Source of the DNA: Prevotella sp.
Lineage (GTDB): Bacteria > Bacteroidota > Bacteroidia > Bacteroidales > Bacteroidaceae
Assembly (NCBI GenBank): GCA_017445845.1
Contig: JAFSRY010000025.1
Location: forward strand, 47,575 to 111,574
Reading direction: 5' to 3'
DNA length: 64,000 nucleotides
The notes beneath the pieces were generated by a model, which saw only the letters and a list, made by a program, of their open reading frames with translations, had not been told where the DNA came from and did not search any database. Made by a program: the position numbers and the translations under genes. Positions within the stretch are counted from its first letter, which is position 1. Each line of letters opens with the position of its first letter. Below, one piece after another: positions 23,944-63,762 of the stretch.

Positions 23944-25110
23944 ATGAAGCTATCACAATTTAAGTTCAAGCTGCCGGAAGAGCAGATTGCCTTGTACCCA
24001 CACCATGTGGTGCATGAGTATGAGAATGAGAACGGCGAGAAGGAAGTCTATCGCATGACCCGCCGCGACGAAAGCCGACTGATGGTCGTCCATAAGAAGT
24101 CGGAACAGATAGAGATGTTCCGCAAGGATGCCGATGGAAATCCCATCGAAGGTGAATACCTGCAGTTCCGCGACGCTCTGAACTACTTCGACGAAGGCGA
24201 CGTCTTCATCTTCAACGACACACAGGTGTTCCCTGCACGCCTCTATGGCACCAAGGAGAAGACCGATGCGAAGATTGAAGTCTTCCTCCTTCGCGAGCTC
24301 AACGAGGAGATGCGCCTTTGGGATGTGCTCGTAGAGCCTGCCCGAAAGATACGTATCGGCAACAAGCTCTTCTTCGACGACACTTCGACGATGGTGGCTG
24401 AAGTCATCGACAACACGACCAGTCGCGGACGCACCCTCCGCTTCCTCTATGACTGCCCGCACGATGAGTTCAAGCGCGAACTGTTCGCCTTAGGCGAAGC
24501 TCCCCTGCCCCGATACATCATCGACAAGCGAGAGGTTCACCATGCCGAGCCGCAAGACATGGAGGACTTCCAGTGCATCTTTGCCAAGAACGAAGGTGCC
24601 GTCACCGCTCCCGCCACAGGCCTTCACTTCACACGCGAGATGATGAAACGCATGGAAATCAGAGGCATCGATGCCGCCTTCATCACCTTACACTGCGGCT
24701 TGGGCACCTTCCACGACATCGAAGTCGAGGACCTCACGAAACACAAGATGGACTCCGAGCAGATGATTATTCCTGCCAAAGCCTGCCAGCAGGTCAACGA
24801 TGCCAAGGTGGCCGGCCATCGCGTCTGTGCCATCGGCACCAGCGTCGTCAAGGCCACAGAGAGTGCCGTGGGTACCGACGGAATGCTGAAGGAATTCGAC
24901 GGATGGACCAATAAGTTCATCTTCCCGCCCTACGACTTCGGACTTGCCGACTCCATGATGGCCAACTTCTATCATCCCCTCTCGACGTTGCTCATGCAGA
25001 CGGCGGCCTTCGGCGGCTACGACCTTGTCATGGAAGCCTACCACAAGGCAGTGAAGAACGGCTATATGTTCGGTTGCTTCGGCGACTCCCTGCTTATCCT
25101 CAATGACTAA
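23944..25110 (+). CDS. queA: S-adenosylmethionine:tRNA ribosyltransferase-isomerase QueA
   Basis: A 388-residue enzyme of queuosine synthesis that transfers and isomerises the ribosyl group of SAM onto preQ1-tRNA. Family signatures are [10 protein letters not shown] at the N-terminus, [19 protein letters not shown] near 85-103, [17 protein letters not shown] near 218, and TLHCGLGTF near 248. It is longer than E. coli QueA (356) because of an insert around residues 25-65 ([20 protein letters not shown]). It ends 34 bp before the folK start. Confidence 0.96.
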
Positions 25111-25144
25111 ACGCCCGCCCAACACCTAATTGGTACCATTTTCT

Positions 25145-25576
25145 ATGGTCACTAAGCACACTGTCTATTTAGGACTCGGCTCGAACATTGGCCACCGCCA
25201 ACGGAACCTACGCCGGGCTATTGCACAAATAAAAAAGTTGATTGGCGAAGTAGACCGCCAATCAACTTTTATCGTTACTGAGCCGTGGGGCTATGAGTCG
25301 CCCAACAGCTATGTCAACGCCTGTGTCCGCGTGCTGACTGAATTGACTCCGCGCCAGTTGCTCGAGACCACACAAGCCATCGAGCGAAACATGGGGCGCA
25401 CCACCCACACGGTCAAAGACTACGAAACAGGCATCATGCTTTATTCCGACCGGCCCATCGACATTGACATCCTTCTCTACGACGACCTCACCATCGATGA
25501 GCCCGACCTGAAGATTCCTCATCCGCTGATGAAGGAGCGCGACTTTGTCATGACACCCCTTCGCGAAATCCTTTAG
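25145..25576 (+). CDS. folK: 6-hydroxymethyl-7,8-dihydropterin pyrophosphokinase FolK
   Basis: A 143-residue enzyme of folate synthesis, starting at ATG 25145; a TTG five codons upstream is an unlikely start. GLGSNIGHRQRNLRRA at the N-terminus and RPIDIDILLYDDL near residue 108 are the two diagnostic HPPK motifs, with the paired Asp residues binding Mg-ATP. It is a single-domain form, without fused FolB or FolP. Its stop overlaps by four bases the stop of the convergent CCA-adding enzyme gene. Confidence 0.95.
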   Translation: MVTKHTVYLGLGSNIGHRQRNLRRAIAQIKKLIGEVDRQSTFIVTEPWGYESPNSYVNACVRVLTELTPRQLLETTQAIERNMGRTTHTVKDYETGIMLYSDRPIDIDILLYDDLTIDEPDLKIPHPLMKERDFVMTPLREIL

Positions 25577-27048
25577 ACAGCCTCTATCCCCAGCACCTTT
25601 GCCTTTTCGTGAAGCAGACGCAGCAATGGTTCGCGCTCGTTGGGAACGACATTGTCGAGGACGGCATCCTTCAGCGCCTGCTTTAAGACGCCCACCTCGC
25701 GACAGGGCTTCAGGTTGAACATCTCCATGATTTCGTTACCATCGACCACAGGCTGCAACAGGCGGCGGTAGTCGCGGACTTTCAAGTCGGCTATCTTCTC
25801 GCGAACCATTCGGAAGTTCTCCAGGAAACGAGCCTTCCGCACTTGGTTCTTCGAGGTGATGTCGGCTTCGCACAGAGTCATCAGGTCGTCAATGTCGTCG
25901 CCGGCATCGCTCACCAGTCGCCGCACGGCACTGTCGGTCACTTCTTCGTCGGCAATGACAATCGGACGCATGTGCAGGTCGACGAGTTTCTGGACATATT
26001 TCATCTTGGCATCCAACGGCAACTTCAGCCGACGGAACAACTCCGGAACCATCTTTGCTCCGACATAGTTATGATTGTGAAAAGTCCAACCCAGCTGTGG
26101 GTCCCAACGCTTCGTCTTGGCCTTGCCGATGTCGTGGAGCAGGGCTGCCCAACGGAAGTATAATGGAGAATAGAGTGTGTTCTGACTCATTCTTATCGCA
26201 TTCTCCAGCACTTCGAGCGTATGGTAGAAATTGTTCTTATGTGCACGTCCGTTCTTGGTCTCAACGTTGTCGAGGGCTGCCAGTTCGGGAAGGATGATGG
26301 CCAGGAGTCCCGAGCGTTGCAGATATTCGAAGCCGATGCTCGGATGGGGTGACATCATGATTTTGTTCAGTTCCTCACTGATCCGTTCACCGCTGATGAT
26401 ACGGATACGGTCAGCCATACGGCAGAGTCCGTCGAAGGTCCCGTCTTCAATCTGGAAGTTGAGTTGAGTGGCAAAGCGGATGCAGCGCATCATGCGGAGC
26501 GGATCGTCAGAGAAGGTCACCTCCGGGTCGAGGGGTGTGGCAATGATACGGTCCTCCATGTCGAGCAGTCCGCCAAAGGGGTCGACAAGTGTGCCGAAGC
26601 GCTGCCGGTTCAGACAGATGGCCATGGCATTGATGGTGAAGTCGCGACGGTTCTGGTCGTCTTCCAGCGTACCGTTCTCAACGACAGGCTTGCGCGAGTC
26701 GTGACTATAGCTCTCCTTGCGGGCCCCGACGAACTCCAGTTCCAGTTCCTCCCCCGGCTGGGTCAGTTTAGAGAAAGCCGATATTTTCAACTGTGCCGTA
26801 CCGAAATTCCTGAACACCGAAAGGTGGGCGTTTCTGCCAAGTTTCTTCTTCAGCGCCTCAGCCAGCATGATGCCTGAGCCGACCACGACGACGTCAATAT
26901 CTTTCGAGGGACGCTCCAGGAAGATGTCGCGAACATAACCGCCCACAACATAACACTCCATGCCCAGTTCGTCGGCCGTATCGCCGATAACGTGGAAGAC
27001 ATCATTGTCCAAAAGCTCTGCCAATTCGGCATCTGTGTACTGTTTCAT
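25573..27048 (-). CDS. cca: CCA tRNA nucleotidyltransferase with HD domain
   Basis: A 491-residue class II CCA-adding enzyme. The nucleotidyltransferase head has YVVGGYVRDIFLERPSKDIDVVVVG (about residues 32-56), containing the GGxVRD and catalytic DxD motifs. RRDFTINAMAICLN (about 133-146) is the second metal/NTP site and DPLRMMRCIRFATQLNF the neck region. A C-terminal HD domain has WAALLHDIGKAKTKRWD (about 304-320). The enzyme completes tRNA 3' ends; the adjacent tRNA-Val gene on the same strand lacks an encoded CCA, so the enzyme is needed for it. It is convergent with folK. Confidence 0.95.
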   Translation of the reverse strand: MKQYTDAELAELLDNDVFHVIGDTADELGMECYVVGGYVRDIFLERPSKDIDVVVVGSGIMLAEALKKKLGRNAHLSVFRNFGTAQLKISAFSKLTQPGEELELEFVGARKESYSHDSRKPVVENGTLEDDQNRRDFTINAMAICLNRQRFGTLVDPFGGLLDMEDRIIATPLDPEVTFSDDPLRMMRCIRFATQLNFQIEDGTFDGLCRMADRIRIISGERISEELNKIMMSPHPSIGFEYLQRSGLLAIILPELAALDNVETKNGRAHKNNFYHTLEVLENAIRMSQNTLYSPLYFRWAALLHDIGKAKTKRWDPQLGWTFHNHNYVGAKMVPELFRRLKLPLDAKMKYVQKLVDLHMRPIVIADEEVTDSAVRRLVSDAGDDIDDLMTLCEADITSKNQVRKARFLENFRMVREKIADLKVRDYRRLLQPVVDGNEIMEMFNLKPCREVGVLKQALKDAVLDNVVPNEREPLLRLLHEKAKVLGIEAV

Positions 27049-27267
27049 AGCTCTTACGCGTACATTATTATTTATTATTCAAGTTCCGTATCTGCCCAAC
27101 CTATATAGAAGTGAAAGTAGCTAAAGAAGTTGAACTTATCATATATACCGACGCGTGTCACAACTATCTACGGACAGAAGTTGAGTCACATCATCAAACA
27201 CAGAGGCCTTGGGAAGGAAAAAAGGGACGAGGGGAAATCGGGTTCTCATGACAGCATCCCTTTGGAA
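27049..27267. other. 219-bp spacer, no gene recognised
   Basis: Between the cca start and the tRNA terminator nothing coding or strongly structured was recognised. It is AT-rich on the cca side and should contain the cca promoter, but no good TAnnTTTG box was identified. Confidence 0.4.
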
Positions 27268-27306
27268 GAAAAATCCTCCCCGAATTCCGAAGAATGTCGG
27301 AGAGGA
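27268..27306 (-). terminator. terminator of the tRNA-Val transcript
   Basis: On the minus strand, CCTC-TCCGA and its partner TCGG-GGGGAGG form a hairpin followed by ATTTTTC, beginning about 11 bp after the mature tRNA end. Confidence 0.65.
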
Positions 27307-27316
27307 AACACCCCTG

Positions 27317-27391
27317 TGGGCGTTGACGGATTCGAACCGCCGACCCTCTGCTTGTAAGGCAGATGCTCTAAACCAGCTGAGCTAAACGCCC
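27317..27391 (-). tRNA. tRNA-Val, anticodon TAC
   Basis: The minus strand folds into a full cloverleaf: acceptor GGGCGTT/AACGCCC, D stem GCTC/GAGC, anticodon stem TCTGC/GCAGA with loop CTTACAA (anticodon TAC, valine), T stem GGCGG/CCGTC with TTCGAAT loop, and discriminator A. The next bases are CAG, so the CCA end is not encoded. The gene lies on the same strand as the neighbouring CCA-adding enzyme gene. Confidence 0.97.
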
Positions 27392-27411
27392 TTACCTCTG
27401 TAAGGCGGGTG

Positions 27412-27443
27412 CAAAGGTAGTGCTTTTTCCCGACACTCACAAA
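27412..27443 (-). promoter_or_regulatory. tRNA-Val promoter
   Basis: On the minus strand TTTG (27440-27443), 20 bp, then TACCTTTG (27412-27419) is a full match to the Bacteroidota promoter, 20 bp before the mature tRNA 5' end. Confidence 0.85.
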
Positions 27444-27542
27444 TTTTTTCACAATTATTTTTCAAAAAACCTCAAAAAAAGAAGTTTACTTCATCACGTT
27501 AAGCAGAGATGACGAGCCCGATAAAGCCTTCCGACTGTGACA

Positions 27543-27685
27543 TCTCTAAGACTTCGTAAAGTAAAATAGGCTATTTTACAAAACAAAATAAGCTATTTTA
27601 CTAACCAAAATAGGCTATTTTACTGACCAAAATAGGCTATTTTACTGACCAAAATAGGCTATTTTACTTTACGAAGTCTTAGAGA
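27543..27685. repeat. array of five 22-bp palindromic units inside a 35-bp inverted repeat
   Basis: The near-palindrome AAAATAGGCTATTTTA recurs at 27563, 27585 (one base changed), 27607, 27629 and 27651, exactly 22 bp apart, separated by six-base spacers such as CTGACC. The outer arms 27543-27577 and 27651-27685 are inverted copies of each other with one mismatch, and weaker symmetry extends further outward. See also the arrays near 48.7 kb and 63.7 kb. Confidence 0.9.
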
Positions 27686-27797
27686 CGGCACTGCCGAAGG
27701 GCTGAAACGCAAGGATGAAAGCCTATAAACGGCAGAAAGAAAACATAAAAAACGAGGGTGTGTCAAGTTACTCTCGCTGACTACGCCGACCTCTGTC

Positions 27798-27836
27798 ACT
27801 CGGCCATCTATACAAGTCGATGGCTCTCGCTGCTCT
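27798..27836. repeat. dispersed hairpin repeat, copy 1
   Basis: ACTCGGC, a hairpin with stem GCCATC/GATGGC (27803-27808 with 27819-27824), then CTCGCTGCTC. A related unit with a different stem but the same flanks lies at 63199-63242. Confidence 0.55.
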
Positions 27837-27861
27837 ATCCGTTCTGCAAAACATAAAAAAC

Positions 27862-27887
27862 GATTTTGTCCTTAAGCGGACAAAATC
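27862..27887. repeat. perfect 10-bp stem-loop upstream of trpS
   Basis: GATTTTGTCC pairs with GGACAAAATC around TTAAGC. No T run follows on either strand, so it is not a classical terminator. Confidence 0.7.
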
Positions 27888-27892
27888 TTCAG

Positions 27893-28026
27893 AACAAGTT
27901 TCTGTTTTCTTTGTTTTGCGCTCACTTATTCGTAACTTTAAATAAGTTACTCCCGCTCGGCAAAACATAAAAAAACATAAACAAGTTTCTGTTTTCTTTG
28001 TTTTGCGCTCACTTATTCGTAACTTT
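27893..28026 (+). repeat. 47-bp direct repeat duplicating the trpS promoter
   Basis: The 47 bp at 27893-27939 are repeated without change at 27980-28026. The second copy supplies the trpS promoter. The first copy is followed by A instead of G, giving TAACTTTA, and the next bases make an inverted repeat GTAACTT/AAGTTAC (27932-27950). The first copy is probably an inactivated promoter. Confidence 0.85.
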
Positions 28027-28027
28027 G
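27997..28027 (+). promoter_or_regulatory. trpS promoter
   Basis: TTTG (27997-28000), 19 bp, TAACTTTG (28020-28027): a perfect Bacteroidota housekeeping promoter, 40 bp before the trpS start codon. Confidence 0.88.
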
Positions 28028-28067
28028 TGCTCCGAAACAAAAAAATAACGACTAATAAGAAAAAAAT

Positions 28068-29057
28068 ATGGAAAAAGTAGTTAGCGGCATCCGTCCGACT
28101 GGCAATCTCCACTTGGGCAACTATTTTGGCGCCGTGAAGAGTTTTGTGAAGATGCAAGATGAATATCAGAGCATGTTCTTTATCGCCGACTGGCACTCTC
28201 TCACCACCCATCCCAAACCCGAAGATATCCAGCAGAGTGCCCGCACGATTTTGGCCGAATACCTTGCCTGCGGCATCGACCCCAAGAAGGCTCCCATCTA
28301 CATCCAGAGCGACGTGAAGGAAACCCTTGAGTTCTATCTATACCTTAATATGAACACCTACATCGGCGAACTGGGCCGCGTGACCACCTTCAAGGAGAAA
28401 GCGCGCCAGCAGCCCGACAATGTCAACGCAGGCCTCTTCACCTACCCCACCCTCATGGCAGCCGACATCCTTCAGCACCGCGCCGTGAAAGTGCCCGTTG
28501 GCAAAGACCAGGAACAAAACATGGAGATGGCCCGCAAGTGTGCGCGCCGCTTCAACAATATCTATGGTGTTGATTTTTTCCCCGAGCCACAGAACTTCTA
28601 CTTCAGCGACAAAGCCTTGAAGGTGCCCGGCCTTGACGGTTCCGGCAAGATGGGAAAGAGCGAGGGAAACTGCATCTACCTTCGCGACGACGACAAGACC
28701 ATCACGAAGAAAGTCATGAGAGCCGTGACCGACAACGGCCCTCAGACACCCAACAGTCCGCGTCCCGACGTCATCGAGAACCTGTTCACCTTCCTCCGCA
28801 TCTGCTCCACGGCAGACACCTATCAGTATTTCGACGAGAAGTGGAACGACTGCACCCTGCGCTACGGCGACCTGAAAAAGCAGATTGCACAAGACCTCTG
28901 CGCCGTCGTCGCACCCATCCGCGAACGCATCGAAGAGTACTCCGCCAATCCCGAGTTACTCGACCGGATTGCACGCGAAGGAGCCGAGGTGGCACGCGCC
29001 AGCGCATCAGAAACACTGCGCGAAGTACGCAAGATTATCGGCTTCCGCATCGGATAG
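28068..29057 (+). CDS. trpS: tryptophan-tRNA ligase TrpS
   Basis: A 329-residue class I aminoacyl-tRNA synthetase of typical bacterial TrpRS length. GIRPTGNLHLGNYFGAVK at the N-terminus contains the HIGH-like HLGN motif, and GSGKMGKSEGN near 192-202 is the KMSKS loop. FIADWHSLTTHP and GVGKDQ-like VPVGKDQEQNMEMAR are further TrpRS blocks. The gene has its own strong promoter and is followed by an intrinsic terminator, so it is transcribed alone. Confidence 0.97.
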   Translation: MEKVVSGIRPTGNLHLGNYFGAVKSFVKMQDEYQSMFFIADWHSLTTHPKPEDIQQSARTILAEYLACGIDPKKAPIYIQSDVKETLEFYLYLNMNTYIGELGRVTTFKEKARQQPDNVNAGLFTYPTLMAADILQHRAVKVPVGKDQEQNMEMARKCARRFNNIYGVDFFPEPQNFYFSDKALKVPGLDGSGKMGKSEGNCIYLRDDDKTITKKVMRAVTDNGPQTPNSPRPDVIENLFTFLRICSTADTYQYFDEKWNDCTLRYGDLKKQIAQDLCAVVAPIRERIEEYSANPELLDRIAREGAEVARASASETLREVRKIIGFRIG

Positions 29058-29096
29058 CCTGACCGTCTTTTATCTATTATTAAATTAATAAATCTA

Positions 29097-29128
29097 AAAA
29101 CTCCGCACACATACGGAGTTTTTTTTTT
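29097..29128 (+). terminator. intrinsic terminator of trpS
   Basis: AAAACTCCG pairs with CGGAGTTTT around CACACATA, followed by an uninterrupted T run. It lies 39 bp after the trpS stop. Confidence 0.92.
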
Positions 29129-29135
29129 ACTTTTG
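29128..29135 (+). promoter_or_regulatory. -7 box (TACTTTTG) before the lipoprotein gene
   Basis: TACTTTTG fits TAnnTTTG and overlaps the end of the trpS terminator T run. The next ATG is only eight bases further, so the transcript may have almost no leader. No TTTG is seen at the -33 position. Confidence 0.5.
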
Positions 29136-29143
29136 TCCCTGTT

Positions 29144-29575
29144 ATGAAAACTTGGGCCTACATATTAACCACAATCATGGTCATTACAGCCTGTTCGAAG
29201 ACCAACGACAAACAGGCTGAGGACATGCTTGCCGAGATACAGTCACTCTACGACAGGGGATACTATGCCGAGACGCTCGACTCCATTGAATCGCTCCGCA
29301 TACGTTATCCAAAGGCCATCGACACCCGTAAGAAAGCCCTTCGCCTCTGGCAGGACGCATCGCTGCGGATGGCCCAAGCCGACATCCAGGTCACCGACTC
29401 GGCCCTTCAGGCCACCCTTCAGCAAATCAAGCAGGCGCAGACCCTACTCGAAGCCAACCAGCTTCGTCAGAAGCGTGACTCGCTGAAAGCGCGCTTCGAT
29501 GCGATGTGCGGTGTGGTCCGCATGATCCATCAGCGGCAAGGCTGCTGCCATGAAGCTGATTCTCTACACAAGTAA
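29144..29575 (+). CDS. small lipoprotein with a long helical region
   Basis: A 143-residue lipoprotein: MKTWAYILTTIMVITAC with Cys17 as the lipidation site. The mature part is rich in Gln, Leu, Ala and Arg, with heptad-like spacing between about residues 65 and 120 (DSALQATLQQIKQAQTLLEANQLRQKRDSLKARF), so probably a coiled coil. No family was recognised. It is followed after 19 bp by a gene for a secreted T9SS protein, and the two may share a transcript. Confidence 0.8.
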   Translation: MKTWAYILTTIMVITACSKTNDKQAEDMLAEIQSLYDRGYYAETLDSIESLRIRYPKAIDTRKKALRLWQDASLRMAQADIQVTDSALQATLQQIKQAQTLLEANQLRQKRDSLKARFDAMCGVVRMIHQRQGCCHEADSLHK

Positions 29576-29594
29576 CAACCAATCGGAAATAACA

Positions 29595-30176
29595 ATGAAA
29601 CGACTTTTACTGACAGTTCTGACACTCGTCTGGATAGCCGTCCTACAGGCACAGACCGTCATCAACATTCCTTTCCAGCAGTACCCGCGACTAAAGGTCG
29701 TAGCTCCCACCGTAAGCATCAACCTCGACAATGGTGCCGACCTCTTAGGCAGCGACCTCGTCGTAGAGGGTGGCGACGGTCAGTATGCCTACCTCTGGAC
29801 CGACACCAACGGCAATGAACTCGGCCAGGAGCGCACCCTCCGCGTTCAGCGCGCCGGCGACTACTACCTTCGCGTCAGCGACGGACAGCAATGTCAGGTG
29901 ACCGCCAAGTTCACCGTCACCGGCACCAGCGGCATCGAGGCCCTTGCCCAACGCGGGCTCACCGTCACGATGAATGGCAGCCTGCTCACCATGACCTATC
30001 CCTCCGCACCCCTTCAGGTACGCATCGTCAACGCAGCCGGACAGCTGGAGCGGAAGCTGACACGCCTTCCTGCCGACAGCTTCACCGAAGATCTCTCAGC
30101 ACTGCCTACAGGTTTCTATATGGTCTGCATCGCCTTCCCCGACGGACAGGCCATCGTCATGAAACTCGAGAAATAA
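29595..30176 (+). CDS. small secreted protein with T9SS sorting tail
   Basis: The start is taken at the ATG of the signal peptide MKRLLLTVLTLVWIAVLQAQ; a more upstream ATG at 29550 overlaps the previous gene. The 193-residue product has a single beta-sandwich-like region (about 30-120; YLWTDTNGNELGQERTLRV, reminiscent of Ig/PKD-type modules) and a C-terminal domain with VRIVNAAGQLERKL, LPTGFYMVCI and a final KLEK, a type A T9SS signal. It is therefore probably carried to the surface. The role is unknown. The Asp-box protein gene begins 20 bp downstream. Confidence 0.75.
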   Translation: MKRLLLTVLTLVWIAVLQAQTVINIPFQQYPRLKVVAPTVSINLDNGADLLGSDLVVEGGDGQYAYLWTDTNGNELGQERTLRVQRAGDYYLRVSDGQQCQVTAKFTVTGTSGIEALAQRGLTVTMNGSLLTMTYPSAPLQVRIVNAAGQLERKLTRLPADSFTEDLSALPTGFYMVCIAFPDGQAIVMKLEK

Positions 30177-48567: not shown

Positions 48568-48632
48568 ATTTCTTTTTCTGCTATCCTCACCAAAGGACAA
48601 TCATTTGGATGAACTCCTAACTATTCTCTCTT

Positions 48633-48786
48633 CCTGCATTCACTGTTCAGTCCTCCTGCATTCACTGTTCAGTCCTCCTGCATTCACTGTTCAGTCTTCC
48701 TGCATTCACTGTTCAGTCTTCCTGCATTCACTGGTCAGTCCTCCTGCATTCATTGTTCAGTCCTCCTGCATTCACTGTGCTTTCTT
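48633..48786. repeat. seven-copy 22-bp tandem repeat
   Basis: Units beginning CCTGCATTCACTG start at 48633, 48655, 48677, 48699, 48721, 48743 and 48765, exactly 22 bp apart, with a few substitutions and a truncated last copy. Each contains the small palindrome ACTG-TT-CAGT. An open frame through it is a by-product of the repeat. Confidence 0.9.
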
Positions 48787-48835
48787 CCCCACACTTCAGC
48801 CTTTCGGCAGTGCCGTTTCTAAGACTTTGTCAAGC

Positions 48836-48916
48836 AAAACAACTTGTTTTGGAAAGTAAAATAGTCTATTTTGGTCAGTAAAATAGTCTATTTTATAAAG
48901 CAAAACAAGTTGTTTT
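48836..48916. repeat. four-unit 22-bp palindrome array
   Basis: Palindromes AAAACAACTTGTTTT (48836), AAAATAGTCTATTTT (48858 and 48880) and AAAACAAGTTGTTTT (48902) are spaced exactly 22 bp apart and arranged symmetrically. Left flank GCAGTGCCGTTTCTAAGAC is the inverse of the right flank of the array at 27.6 kb. Confidence 0.9.
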
Positions 48917-49089
48917 GGTTTTTCGATTATCAATTTTCGTGCCTGTCGAAAGGCTGTATCGGGACTGCCGAAGGGCAGTATCGGGTTTTAGGACTCTGCC
49001 TCAGGTCCCGAGGTAGGTCAAAAAAAGGGAGGGGAATTTGTCGAATGAGAGTGTTGAGAAACGCTGTCGGCTTTTTTAGGGTGCTAAAA

Positions 49090-52202: not shown

Positions 52203-52850
52203 ATGGATAGTAATGTTCTAAGACACATCAGCGCACTTGAAGAGCGCTACCCACAGCTCAGCGTATGCAACGACGCCATCAAAGGAGCTTATGAAATCAT
52301 GGAGCAGGCCTACGCCAACGGTCGCAAGCTCCTCGTCTGCGGCAACGGCGGCTCGGCTTCCGACAGCGAGCACATTGTGGGCGAACTCATGAAAGAGTTT
52401 AAACTCAAGCGTAAAGTATACAAGAATCAAGCCGAGGCCATGAAGCGTATCGACAGCGAACTGGGTTCCGTCCTTGCCGAACACCTGCAGGGCGCACTGC
52501 CTGCCATCACCCTGACCGGTCACTCATCGCTGACGACAGCCTTCATGAACGACAGCCTGCCCGAGCTGATCTTTGCCCAGCAGGTGAACGGATACGGCAA
52601 GGCGGGCGACGTCTTCCTCGGCATCTCTACGTCGGGCAACAGCCGCAATGTGCTCTTCGCTGCCGTCGCCGCCAAGGCGAAAGGACTCAAGGTCATCGGA
52701 CTGACCGGAGCGAAAGACTGCCGGCTGGCTCATCTGGCCGACCTCTGCATACAGGTCCCGGAGACGGAAACCTATAAAATACAGGAACTGCATCTGCCCG
52801 TCTATCACTGCCTGTGCATGATGCTCGAGGAACACTTCTTTGGGAAATAA
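52203..52850 (+). CDS. gmhA: phosphoheptose isomerase GmhA (SIS domain)
   Basis: A 215-residue isomerase that converts sedoheptulose 7-phosphate to D-glycero-D-manno-heptose 7-phosphate. A much longer open frame continues upstream into the kinase gene in another frame and is not coding there. LLVCGNGGSASDSEHIVGELMKEF and GISTSGNSRNVLFAA are the SIS sugar-phosphate motifs, and ELHLPVYHCLCMMLEEHF the C-terminal GmhA block. It starts two bases after the hddA stop. A triple G/C-rich repeat follows immediately. Confidence 0.95.
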   Translation: MDSNVLRHISALEERYPQLSVCNDAIKGAYEIMEQAYANGRKLLVCGNGGSASDSEHIVGELMKEFKLKRKVYKNQAEAMKRIDSELGSVLAEHLQGALPAITLTGHSSLTTAFMNDSLPELIFAQQVNGYGKAGDVFLGISTSGNSRNVLFAAVAAKAKGLKVIGLTGAKDCRLAHLADLCIQVPETETYKIQELHLPVYHCLCMMLEEHFFGK

Positions 52851-53035
52851 AAAACAAAAGCCCCTCCCGACCTCCCCCAAGGGGAGGAGGGCCTGCCGGC
52901 AGGGGTAATAAAAAAACAAAAGCCCCTCCCGACCTCCCCCAAGGGGAGGAGGGCCTGCCGGCAGAGGGTAATAAAAAAACAAAAGCCCCTCCCGACCTCC
53001 CCCAAGGGGAGGAGGGCCTGCCGGTAGGGGTAATC
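52851..53035. repeat. three tandem 62-63-bp copies of a G/C-rich hairpin repeat
   Basis: Copies begin at 52851, 52913 and 52976. Each starts AAAACAAAAGCCCCTCCC, contains the hairpin CTCCCCCAAGGGGAG and ends GCCTGCCGG-AGGGGTAAT. They differ at only a few bases. They fill the 209-bp gap between gmhA and the heptose nucleotidyltransferase gene and could act as serial terminators or attenuators. Confidence 0.92.
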
Positions 53036-63130: not shown

Positions 63131-63198
63131 TAAATAAGTGTTATCGTTATTAATTATTGAATTTCATTCGACCTTTTGACTTCGTCTTCGTCCGTCAC

Positions 63199-63242
63199 GA
63201 CTCGGCAGACTTCATGCAAGCATGGTCTGCCCTCGCTGCTCC
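63199..63242. repeat. dispersed hairpin repeat, copy 2
   Basis: GGCAGAC-TT-CATGC-AA-GCATG-GTCTGCC (63204-63231) is an almost uninterrupted hairpin, flanked by ACTCGGC and CTCGCTGCTC as in the copy at 27798-27836. Confidence 0.65.
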
Positions 63243-63312
63243 GTCCGTTGACTTTGTCTTCCTCTTTCGCGACTCGAGGGCGTGTCAAATCGAAGGTAGT
63301 GCGCTTTGCGCA

Positions 63313-63636: not shown

Positions 63637-63762
63637 GACCAAAGGCTGGTCACGATGAGACCAAAGCTTGGTCACAATGAGACCAAAGGCTGGTCACGAT
63701 GAGACCAAGGGCTGGTCACGATGAGACCAAAGTGAGGTCGTGTTTCTGGTCACGACGAGACC
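63637..63762. repeat. 22-bp tandem palindrome array (GACCA-TGGTC units)
   Basis: Units beginning GACCAAAGGCTGGTC start at 63637, 63659, 63681, 63703 and 63725, exactly 22 bp apart; the last has a 12-bp insertion. Each unit is a GACCA/TGGTC palindrome. Downstream sequence includes CCGAAAGGCTGA and AAGTCTTTAGAAAC, words also found beside the arrays at 27.6 and 48.8 kb. Confidence 0.9.

Follow-up and report, generated by a model that had tools for sequence, protein, structure and literature searches.

The array of AT-rich palindromes between a tRNA-Val gene and trpS in this Prevotella sp. sequence may be one copy of a large MITE/BIME-like extragenic class whose 22-bp pitch is held by a dimeric protein that reads helical phase, an explanation to which we give a little less than even credence. 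The window analyzed is a 64,000-nucleotide stretch of contig JAFSRY010000025.1 (assembly GCA_017445845.1, positions 47,575 to 111,574 of the forward strand), and its own genome, hereafter G000, is an assembly of 2.46 Mb in 103 contigs that is 75.5% complete. The points that favor a protein-read pitch are the share of tandem arrays with a 22-bp period (58/166), the spacings within two dyad families (144/144 and 92/92), the continuation of the phase into flank modules, a stable core, the insertion and deletion of whole modules, and an extragenic position. The wider comparisons drew on a pooled sample of 1.46 Mb from 12 genomes of the same genus, to which G000 contributed 367,582 bases (1,852 of them N); four of the 12 assemblies (G000, G226, G310, and G175) are only 56 to 81% complete, and G003 and G026 are 99% complete.

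The window array is a run of five AT-rich dyads, which start at 27563, 27585, 27607, 27629, and 27651 and have the sequence AAAATAGSCTATTTT and, in one unit, AAAATAAGCTATTTT; TRF reports 27563-27668 with a period of 22 bp and 94% matches. The initial annotation had described palindromes of 16 bp every 22 bp, and the spacing stands on both the five starts and the TRF period, whereas the length does not, given that each dyad is 15 bp with a single central base. The inverted arms that it placed around the array are borne out in the window sequence, where 27543-27577 and 27651-27685 pair at 34 of 35 positions, 15 of which are the first and last dyads themselves. It was also right about outward-facing flank words that are more degraded on the left: CACTGCCGAAGGGCTGA stands at 27689-27705 and an inverted, degraded version at 27517-27539. 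Its proposal that all dyads would lie on one face of the DNA is a reasonable reading of the phase. The features of this locus are as follows.

27316..27391, minus strand: tRNA-Val(tac), left neighbor of the array
27517..27539, minus strand: outer unit, degraded and outward-facing, reading CACAGTCGGAAGGCTTTATCGGG outward
27543..27562, plus strand: left inverted arm outside the core, holding most of the first flank unit, whose center at 27548 is 22 bp before the first dyad, at the distance where palindromicity peaks outside the core in 23 elements
27563..27665, no strand: core array of five dyads (27563-27577, 27585-27599, 27607-27621, 27629-27643, and 27651-27665) with a pitch of 22 bp and linkers of 7 bp
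27666..27685, minus strand: right inverted arm, complement of the left arm, with its first flank unit centered at 27680
27689..27709, plus strand: outer unit, outward-facing, CACTGCCGAAGGGCTGAAACG
28068..29057, plus strand: trpS, right neighbor of the array and divergent from the tRNA, interpreted as tryptophanyl-tRNA synthetase from a match to Pfam tRNA-synt_1b (class I W and Y)

The gap between tRNA-Val and trpS that holds the array is 676 bp. The same two genes are adjacent in the same-genus relatives G009, G019, and G029, where about 130 to 230 bp separate them and no array is present; in a fourth relative, G005, the genes lie apart, and this genome was left out of the comparison. Next to the array, 27736-28040 is further dispersed repeat DNA, with a partial 96% match at C44:21415 of G000 and a similar stretch in G175 (L141). 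The array was also considered as a CRISPR and rejected as such, given that its 7-bp linkers come from a small set and are not unique spacers of the usual length.

Two further 22-bp sites that the initial annotation had noted in the window are real, and both carry flank words related to those of the window array (CCGAAAGGCTG and AAGTCTTAGAAAC or AAGTCTTTAGAAAC). None of the blocks listed here has an assigned strand.

48632..48778: second site, side array, TCCTGCATTCACTGTTCAGTCC x 6.7, period 22, with a consensus that is not significant as a dyad
48832..48908: second site, core, four dyads at 22 bp of the same family as the window array, AAAACAASTTGTTTT and AAAATAGTCTATTTT
48943..48985: second site, outer units, CTGCCGAAAGGCAGTATCGGGA x 2, period 22
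63637..63732: third site, GACCAAAGGCTGGTCACGATGA x 4.4 at a period of 22, from a different dyad family that is dispersed in G000 and G310

The mutual phase of the sub-blocks at the second site, worked out by hand, is not exact. Elsewhere in the window, 52842-53034 holds about three tandem 62-bp GC-rich copies with a strong hairpin, CCCCTCCCGACCTCCCCCAAGGGGAGGAGGG, and 63180-63260 is related to a 72-bp tandem repeat found at two sampled G000 sites (L105 11109-11332 and L112 1-140).

The dyad family of the window array, which we call the A family, is dispersed through G000. A DNA search with the array returned 50 matches at 27 hand-counted places, both A-family sites of the window included; some of these places are at contig ends, so a few could be parts of one locus. 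The flank recurs at these 27 places and is not single-copy, which agrees with the family with related flank words proposed in the initial annotation. Three or more in-phase dyads are present at 23 of the 27 places (five dyads at 13, four at 6, and three at 4), and these 23 were taken as elements, leaving out L095, which has no core dyad, and L096, L101, and L102, which have fewer than three dyads in phase. By eye, the variable part of the A-family linkers in G000 takes only a handful of forms, including CCGACC, CTGACC, CAAAAC, and CTTTGC. Two A dyads separated by a free gap of 0 to 30 bp were found in 36 stretches among the GTDB contigs of about 85,000 species genomes, and 35 of these lie in records titled Prevotella or Prevotellaceae; the remaining one is a Parcubacteria record (L062) with dyads 21 bp apart. 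A looser pattern with a gap of 1 to 29 matched at least 10 of 398 same-genus genomes. The A pattern was found in no stretch of the viral contigs, and plasmids and phages gave no match to the window array.

The spacing within the A family is strict. All 144 distances between successive A dyads at the fetched loci are multiples of 22 bp (133 at 22, 10 at 44, and 1 at 66); they come from 64 distinct groups with 208 dyads, with the Parcubacteria locus left out and duplicates removed by an approximate rule, and two of the 64 groups contain only one exact A dyad. None of the 16 exact A dyads in the 367,582 bases of G000 is solitary, and the one solitary exact dyad, found in the G028 sample, has an imperfect neighbor 22 bp away. 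At a Prevotella disiens locus (L052), two A dyads stand 44 bp apart with a different dyad, AAAAGCATAACTTTT, exactly midway. A second family, GACCAARNNNKGGTC, searched with a gap of 1 to 29 in seven genomes, gave 92 matches, with one place counted on both strands, and all 92 are at 22 (87) or 44 (5) bp; 47 of the matches are in G000, 44 in G310, 1 in G175, and 0 in the other four. A third dyad family of G000, GATAA...TTATC, also has a period of 22 (L106 18763-18897, L110 10384-10533, and L118 15073-15138), with a 66-bp higher-order repeat at two of these loci. Outside the core of the 23 A-family elements, palindromicity peaks at 22 bp (z 5.7), 44 bp (z 3.4), and 33 bp (z 3.2), so the phase extends into flank modules of other sequence.

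The initial annotation had pictured a fast-changing core, and the reverse is true within G000, where the core is the conserved part and the flanks degenerate. Only 13 of 707 cells are changed on one side in the inner seven pairs of 101 A-core units, compared to 165 of 368 in the eight pairs of the first flank unit (46 units), where 29 more cells are changed on both sides and left unpaired. We considered compensatory change as proof and rejected it, given that the double changes in the A core come mostly from one subfamily (AAAACAASTTGTTTT) and thus represent few events. Paired double changes in the first flank unit were not above expectation (174 paired, with 173.1 expected). The same A core occurs in several species, and dispersed copies with decayed flanks and an intact core that is shared across species point to a trans-acting reader or to homogenization between copies.

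The 22-bp period extends well beyond the A family. Among 166 arrays with a best TRF period of 10 to 60 bp in the pooled sample, 58 are at 22, followed by 21 (16 arrays), 16 and 18 (13 each), 14 (11), 24 (8), 44 (6), and 23 (3). A fixed period with differing units, as the initial annotation had proposed, is strongly supported both within the genome and across species by the dyad scans, by TRF, and by the spacings of the two families, and 22 bp is the commonest period; together with the recurring flank, this means that both refuting checks named in the initial annotation were survived. The density of 22-bp arrays per 100 kb is highest in G226 (9), G026 and G028 (8 each), G003 (7), and G310 and G175 (4 each), and lower in the poorer samples (2 in G010, 1 each in G289 and G024, and 0 in G004 and G016, the last with one array at 44); G000 has 14 such arrays in 367 kb. 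The unit consensuses fall into about 16 groups at a threshold taken from shuffling, a rough number given that single linkage can both join units that are unrelated and separate ones that are related; examples of 22-bp units from other species are TTATACACGTTTGTATAATGAG, ATTGTTCGCGAACAATTTCGAG, and GTATTCTCTTAGGGATTACACT. In four other families of the order (400 kb), none of 19 arrays is at 22 bp, and one of the genomes sampled there, G061, has a single three-dyad cluster at 22. Samples from 20 further genera of the family (352,576 bases, with two very short stretches) have 12 of 35 arrays at 22 bp, spread over five genera, so the period is not restricted to one genus; all 12 have about two to three copies, and none shows a three-dyad cluster at 22. 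A 340-base stretch of G012 was left unused.

Counts of rows of three dyads at equal spacing, whatever their sequence, show that the pattern exceeds chance. The 367,582 bases of G000 contain 9 clusters at 22 bp, 9 at 33, 5 at 44, and 3 at 55, and every other period from 14 to 60 has 0 or 1; the pooled sample contains 24, 24, 13, and 6 clusters at the same four periods. Clusters at 33 and 55 bp are expected because the linkers are partly dyadic themselves. Counting against a protein-read pitch, clusters exceed the shuffles at other periods too: periods of 14 to 60 that are not multiples of 11 average 1.23 in the pooled sample (with 5 at 18 and 5 at 21), compared to 0.29 in two local shuffles of the same 1.46 Mb, which had none at 22. 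Dyad symmetry at P values of 0.05 or below was found in 13 of 54 unit consensuses but in only 1 of 57 control arrays, in a test that is underpowered for AT-rich units. Dyad symmetry is thus enriched and not universal, and the period is the wider rule; with 13 of 54 consensuses dyadic, some arrays cannot be rows of dimer sites.

The arrays are largely extragenic. Mechanical open reading frames of at least 100 amino acids cover 88% of the bases, and 59 of the 64 arrays with a period of 22 or 44 lie outside them, as do 59 of the 102 arrays of other periods. The 56 arrays with both neighbors comprise 18 in convergent, 34 in tandem, and 4 in divergent gaps, with about 10 convergent and 13 divergent expected from a hand calculation weighted by the gaps of each genome; divergent gaps make up about 31% of the pooled intergenic bases. 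The arrays lie a median of 114 bp from a 3' end, compared to 296 bp from a 5' end. The scarcity of divergent placements and the proximity to 3' ends are unlike promoter operators and count against a protein-read pitch. The excess of convergent placements and the proximity to 3' ends are in keeping with an element that acts as RNA, the transcript folding as one long hairpin or as several in a row and thereby protecting or terminating the mRNA, and both strands of 27500-27720 do fold far better than shuffles (z of -9.0 and -10.3). We nevertheless regard an RNA-level role as improbable, given that a row of hairpins needs no exact 22-nt pitch, that a number of the G003 dyads are perfect palindromes and leave hardly any space for a loop, and that the A family of G000, unlike the class, is often in divergent gaps (7 of 18). 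Within 25000-30000 of the window, only the tRNA reached its Rfam gathering score; two microRNA matches scored far below theirs and were set aside as chance matches to a long hairpin.

The neighbors of the arrays bear on whether these could be operator arrays of ordinary transcription factors, arranged like the tandem operators of lambda with one regulon per family. Cooperative repressors do use a two-turn operator spacing, and in lambda OR, dyads of roughly 16 bp are separated by about 6 bp, lie about two turns apart, and are bound cooperatively in tandem, much as the arrays are laid out here. The A core is identical in several species, and in two genomes an A-family array lies about 100 to 120 bp upstream of a gene for an HU-HIG DNA-binding protein (L010 and L045, 61% identity). 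This was the one clear common neighbor, found at 1 of the 26 array places of G000 that were compared to array places in loci L042-L077 of other genomes. The neighbors examined are otherwise unrelated: of 20 proteins, 17 had a Pfam match at an E value of 0.001 or below, among them RsgA, tRNA synthetases, and an AAA protein with ClpB_D2-small. Given further that the class is rare in divergent gaps, that a genome carries many arrays and several sequence families (4 to 9 arrays per 100 kb in the six richest samples), and that the arrays have no tie to one regulator gene as lambda OR does, we consider ordinary operators very unlikely.

The turnover of whole modules was seen in a family of elements of about 310 bp, which, taken from G026, had 34 matches in G026, 20 in G003, and none in G010, G226, or G289; plasmids gave no match to it, nor was there a meaningful match between it and the P. 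disiens locus L052. Fifteen copies were aligned, and in most of these a core of about four dyads is enclosed by inverted outer modules. Thirteen of them, with the partial copies L219 and L223 left out, differ from the consensus by 16 indels, 11 of which are 22 or 44 bp and 5 of which are 1 to 2 bp, alongside 370 substitutions in 3,455 sites; some indels are common to orthologous copies, so the independent events are fewer. Modules are thus gained and lost whole, in the core and in the arms. Three apparently orthologous pairs between G026 and G003 have element gaps of 22, 1, and 1 bp; 22 and 22 bp; and 1 bp, and their elements change about twice as fast as flanks that include genes. Indel depletion was rejected as proof of selection, given that the elements do not clearly have fewer small indels than the flanks; together with the faster change of the elements, this gives no proof of selection on phase, which is unproven. 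A separate set of short repeats lies at L224 1907-2266 of G026, with some forty matches in G003, including the hairpin AAGAGACGCCC / GGGCGTCTCTT.

The initial annotation had also suggested mobility, which is supported indirectly by neighbors that are rarely shared and by the absence of the array at tRNA-Val/trpS in three relatives, and not by an identified transposase or by a clean empty site with a target duplication. When L204, L216, and L224 of G026 were compared to G003 as candidate empty sites, we met broken synteny or further differing DNA and no clean site with a target duplication. The presence of elements at many intergenic sites, mostly not shared among the compared species in these limited data, supports spread or repeated origin. 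The main rival to a protein-read pitch is a selfish MITE lineage with an internal minisatellite, moved by a transposase, in which the units are by-products of slippage and the 22-bp length was inherited from one ancestral unit and has no function. The dispersed family in G026 and G003, the indels of whole units, the relatives with no array at tRNA-Val/trpS, and the faster change of elements compared to flanks all fit such a lineage, and one old 22-bp repeat as common ancestor would also yield a single period. However, no link to a transposase was found, and no target duplication at the compared sites, which also differ by other DNA; the A core is far better conserved than its flanks, and about 16 unit groups, roughly clustered, hold one period, with 23 bp in only 3 of the 166 arrays. 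We consider the selfish lineage a serious possibility, though on balance probably not the correct one.

The nearest precedent for such a lineage is BrickBuilt of Porphyromonas gingivalis, which the available text of Klein et al. 2015 (PMC4596501) describes as a dispersed intergenic MITE with 1 to 22.8 tandem 23-nt units, a minisatellite of direct repeats, between a leader and a tail, with IS5-like 12-bp terminal repeats; 22-nt tandem repeats in P. gingivalis W83 are mentioned there too. As far as that text goes, BrickBuilt and the elements here share an order (Bacteroidales), an intergenic and dispersed position, tandem units that span about two turns, flanks in the form of a leader and a tail, inverted ends of small size, and a variable unit number, and they differ in that the arrays here comprise several sequence families at 22 bp, with dyad cores and an inverted symmetry of the whole element. 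The elements were not filed as BrickBuilt given that two families show only multiples of 22; a non-systematic look at the aligned element ends and printed flanks noticed no IS5-like 12-bp terminal repeats (GAGACC...). The available text of Naito et al. 2015 (PMC4755523) describes PINSR of the Prevotella intermedia/nigrescens group as an intergenic non-coding repeat with a 188-bp consensus and 177 and 184 copies in two P. intermedia strains, present in four related species (P. intermedia, P. nigrescens, P. falsenii, and P. disiens) with 18 species examined by PCR. It is reported to be without terminal inverted repeats, and neither "22-bp" nor "22 bp" occurs in the main text (PMC4755523). Judged by that description alone, PINSR resembles the elements here in being intergenic, non-coding, and dispersed in Prevotella, including P. 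disiens, which also has the A-type dyad pair at L052, and is set apart from them in that they are inverted repeats. Dispersed Prevotella repeats are therefore not new, and what appears to be new is the shared pitch, which the available text of the open-access literature searched on such repeats did not contain. Being short, non-coding, dispersed, and of inverted-repeat structure, the elements share the general features of MITEs, and by description they are MITE/BIME-like and near BrickBuilt and PINSR.

BIME, REP, and REPIN sequences are extragenic palindromic units of high copy number in mosaic order, and the arrays here are likewise high-copy extragenic palindromes. A REP/BIME or REPIN system spread by a RAYT (Y1) transposase would account for the mosaic of units, and PF01797 was matched in the array-rich G028 and in G310. 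It was also present, however, in the array-poor G004 and G016 and in G010, making 5 positive genomes of 12, and had no match in the array-rich and 99% complete G003 and G026, nor in G000 (75.5% complete), G226, G175, G289, or G024. The strict 22-bp pitch and the AT-rich A cores are also unlike BIME, REP, and REPIN, and we find a RAYT-driven system hardly credible. BOX and other modular intergenic elements form stem-loops and gain or lose modules, as the elements here do; unlike BOX, these share one module length across all parts and families.

We return to a pitch held by a phase-reading protein, which is an inference. RNA hairpins would need no exact pitch, and slippage alone would let the unit length drift. 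The element would be built of 22-bp modules and contain no gene, with outer modules in inverted order around a homogeneous core that often consists of dyads, and whole modules would be gained and lost, as was seen in one family. New modules may arise by slippage or unequal exchange. A putative dimeric protein, or a set of paralogues, would read the modules cooperatively in double-stranded DNA from a single face of the helix, with out-of-phase copies being lost, such that the pitch is kept across many unit sequences. Our search found no partner protein for the arrays. A broader proposal is that Bacteroidaceae carry a positional code, in which dozens to hundreds of intergenic arrays, a number extrapolated from the samples, are docking tracks of a chromosome-organizing protein that reads phase, bridges DNA, or forms filaments; the two-turn spacing and not the sequence would be under selection, and unit sequences would be free to turn over if the pitch were kept. 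We consider this code unlikely as it stands. Bacterial repeat families are usually defined by sequence, whereas here a length of 22 bp is the property common to different repeats and across species. If selection holds the pitch, the spacing by itself would point to a protein able to read helical phase, with the arrays as a ready assay; if the pitch is only inherited, the arrays would represent an unusually stable minisatellite lineage that makes up a good part of the tandem repeats in Prevotella spacers.

One further repeat was observed beside the arrays. A repeat starting TGACTTTTCCTGATTTCACTAGACAC has three matches in G000, all at contig ends (L008, L012, and L016, on C81, C87, and C52) and each directly against an A-family array. 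Insertion sequences that target REP sequences are known, which may bear on this repeat, and it is perhaps an insertion sequence that targets the arrays.
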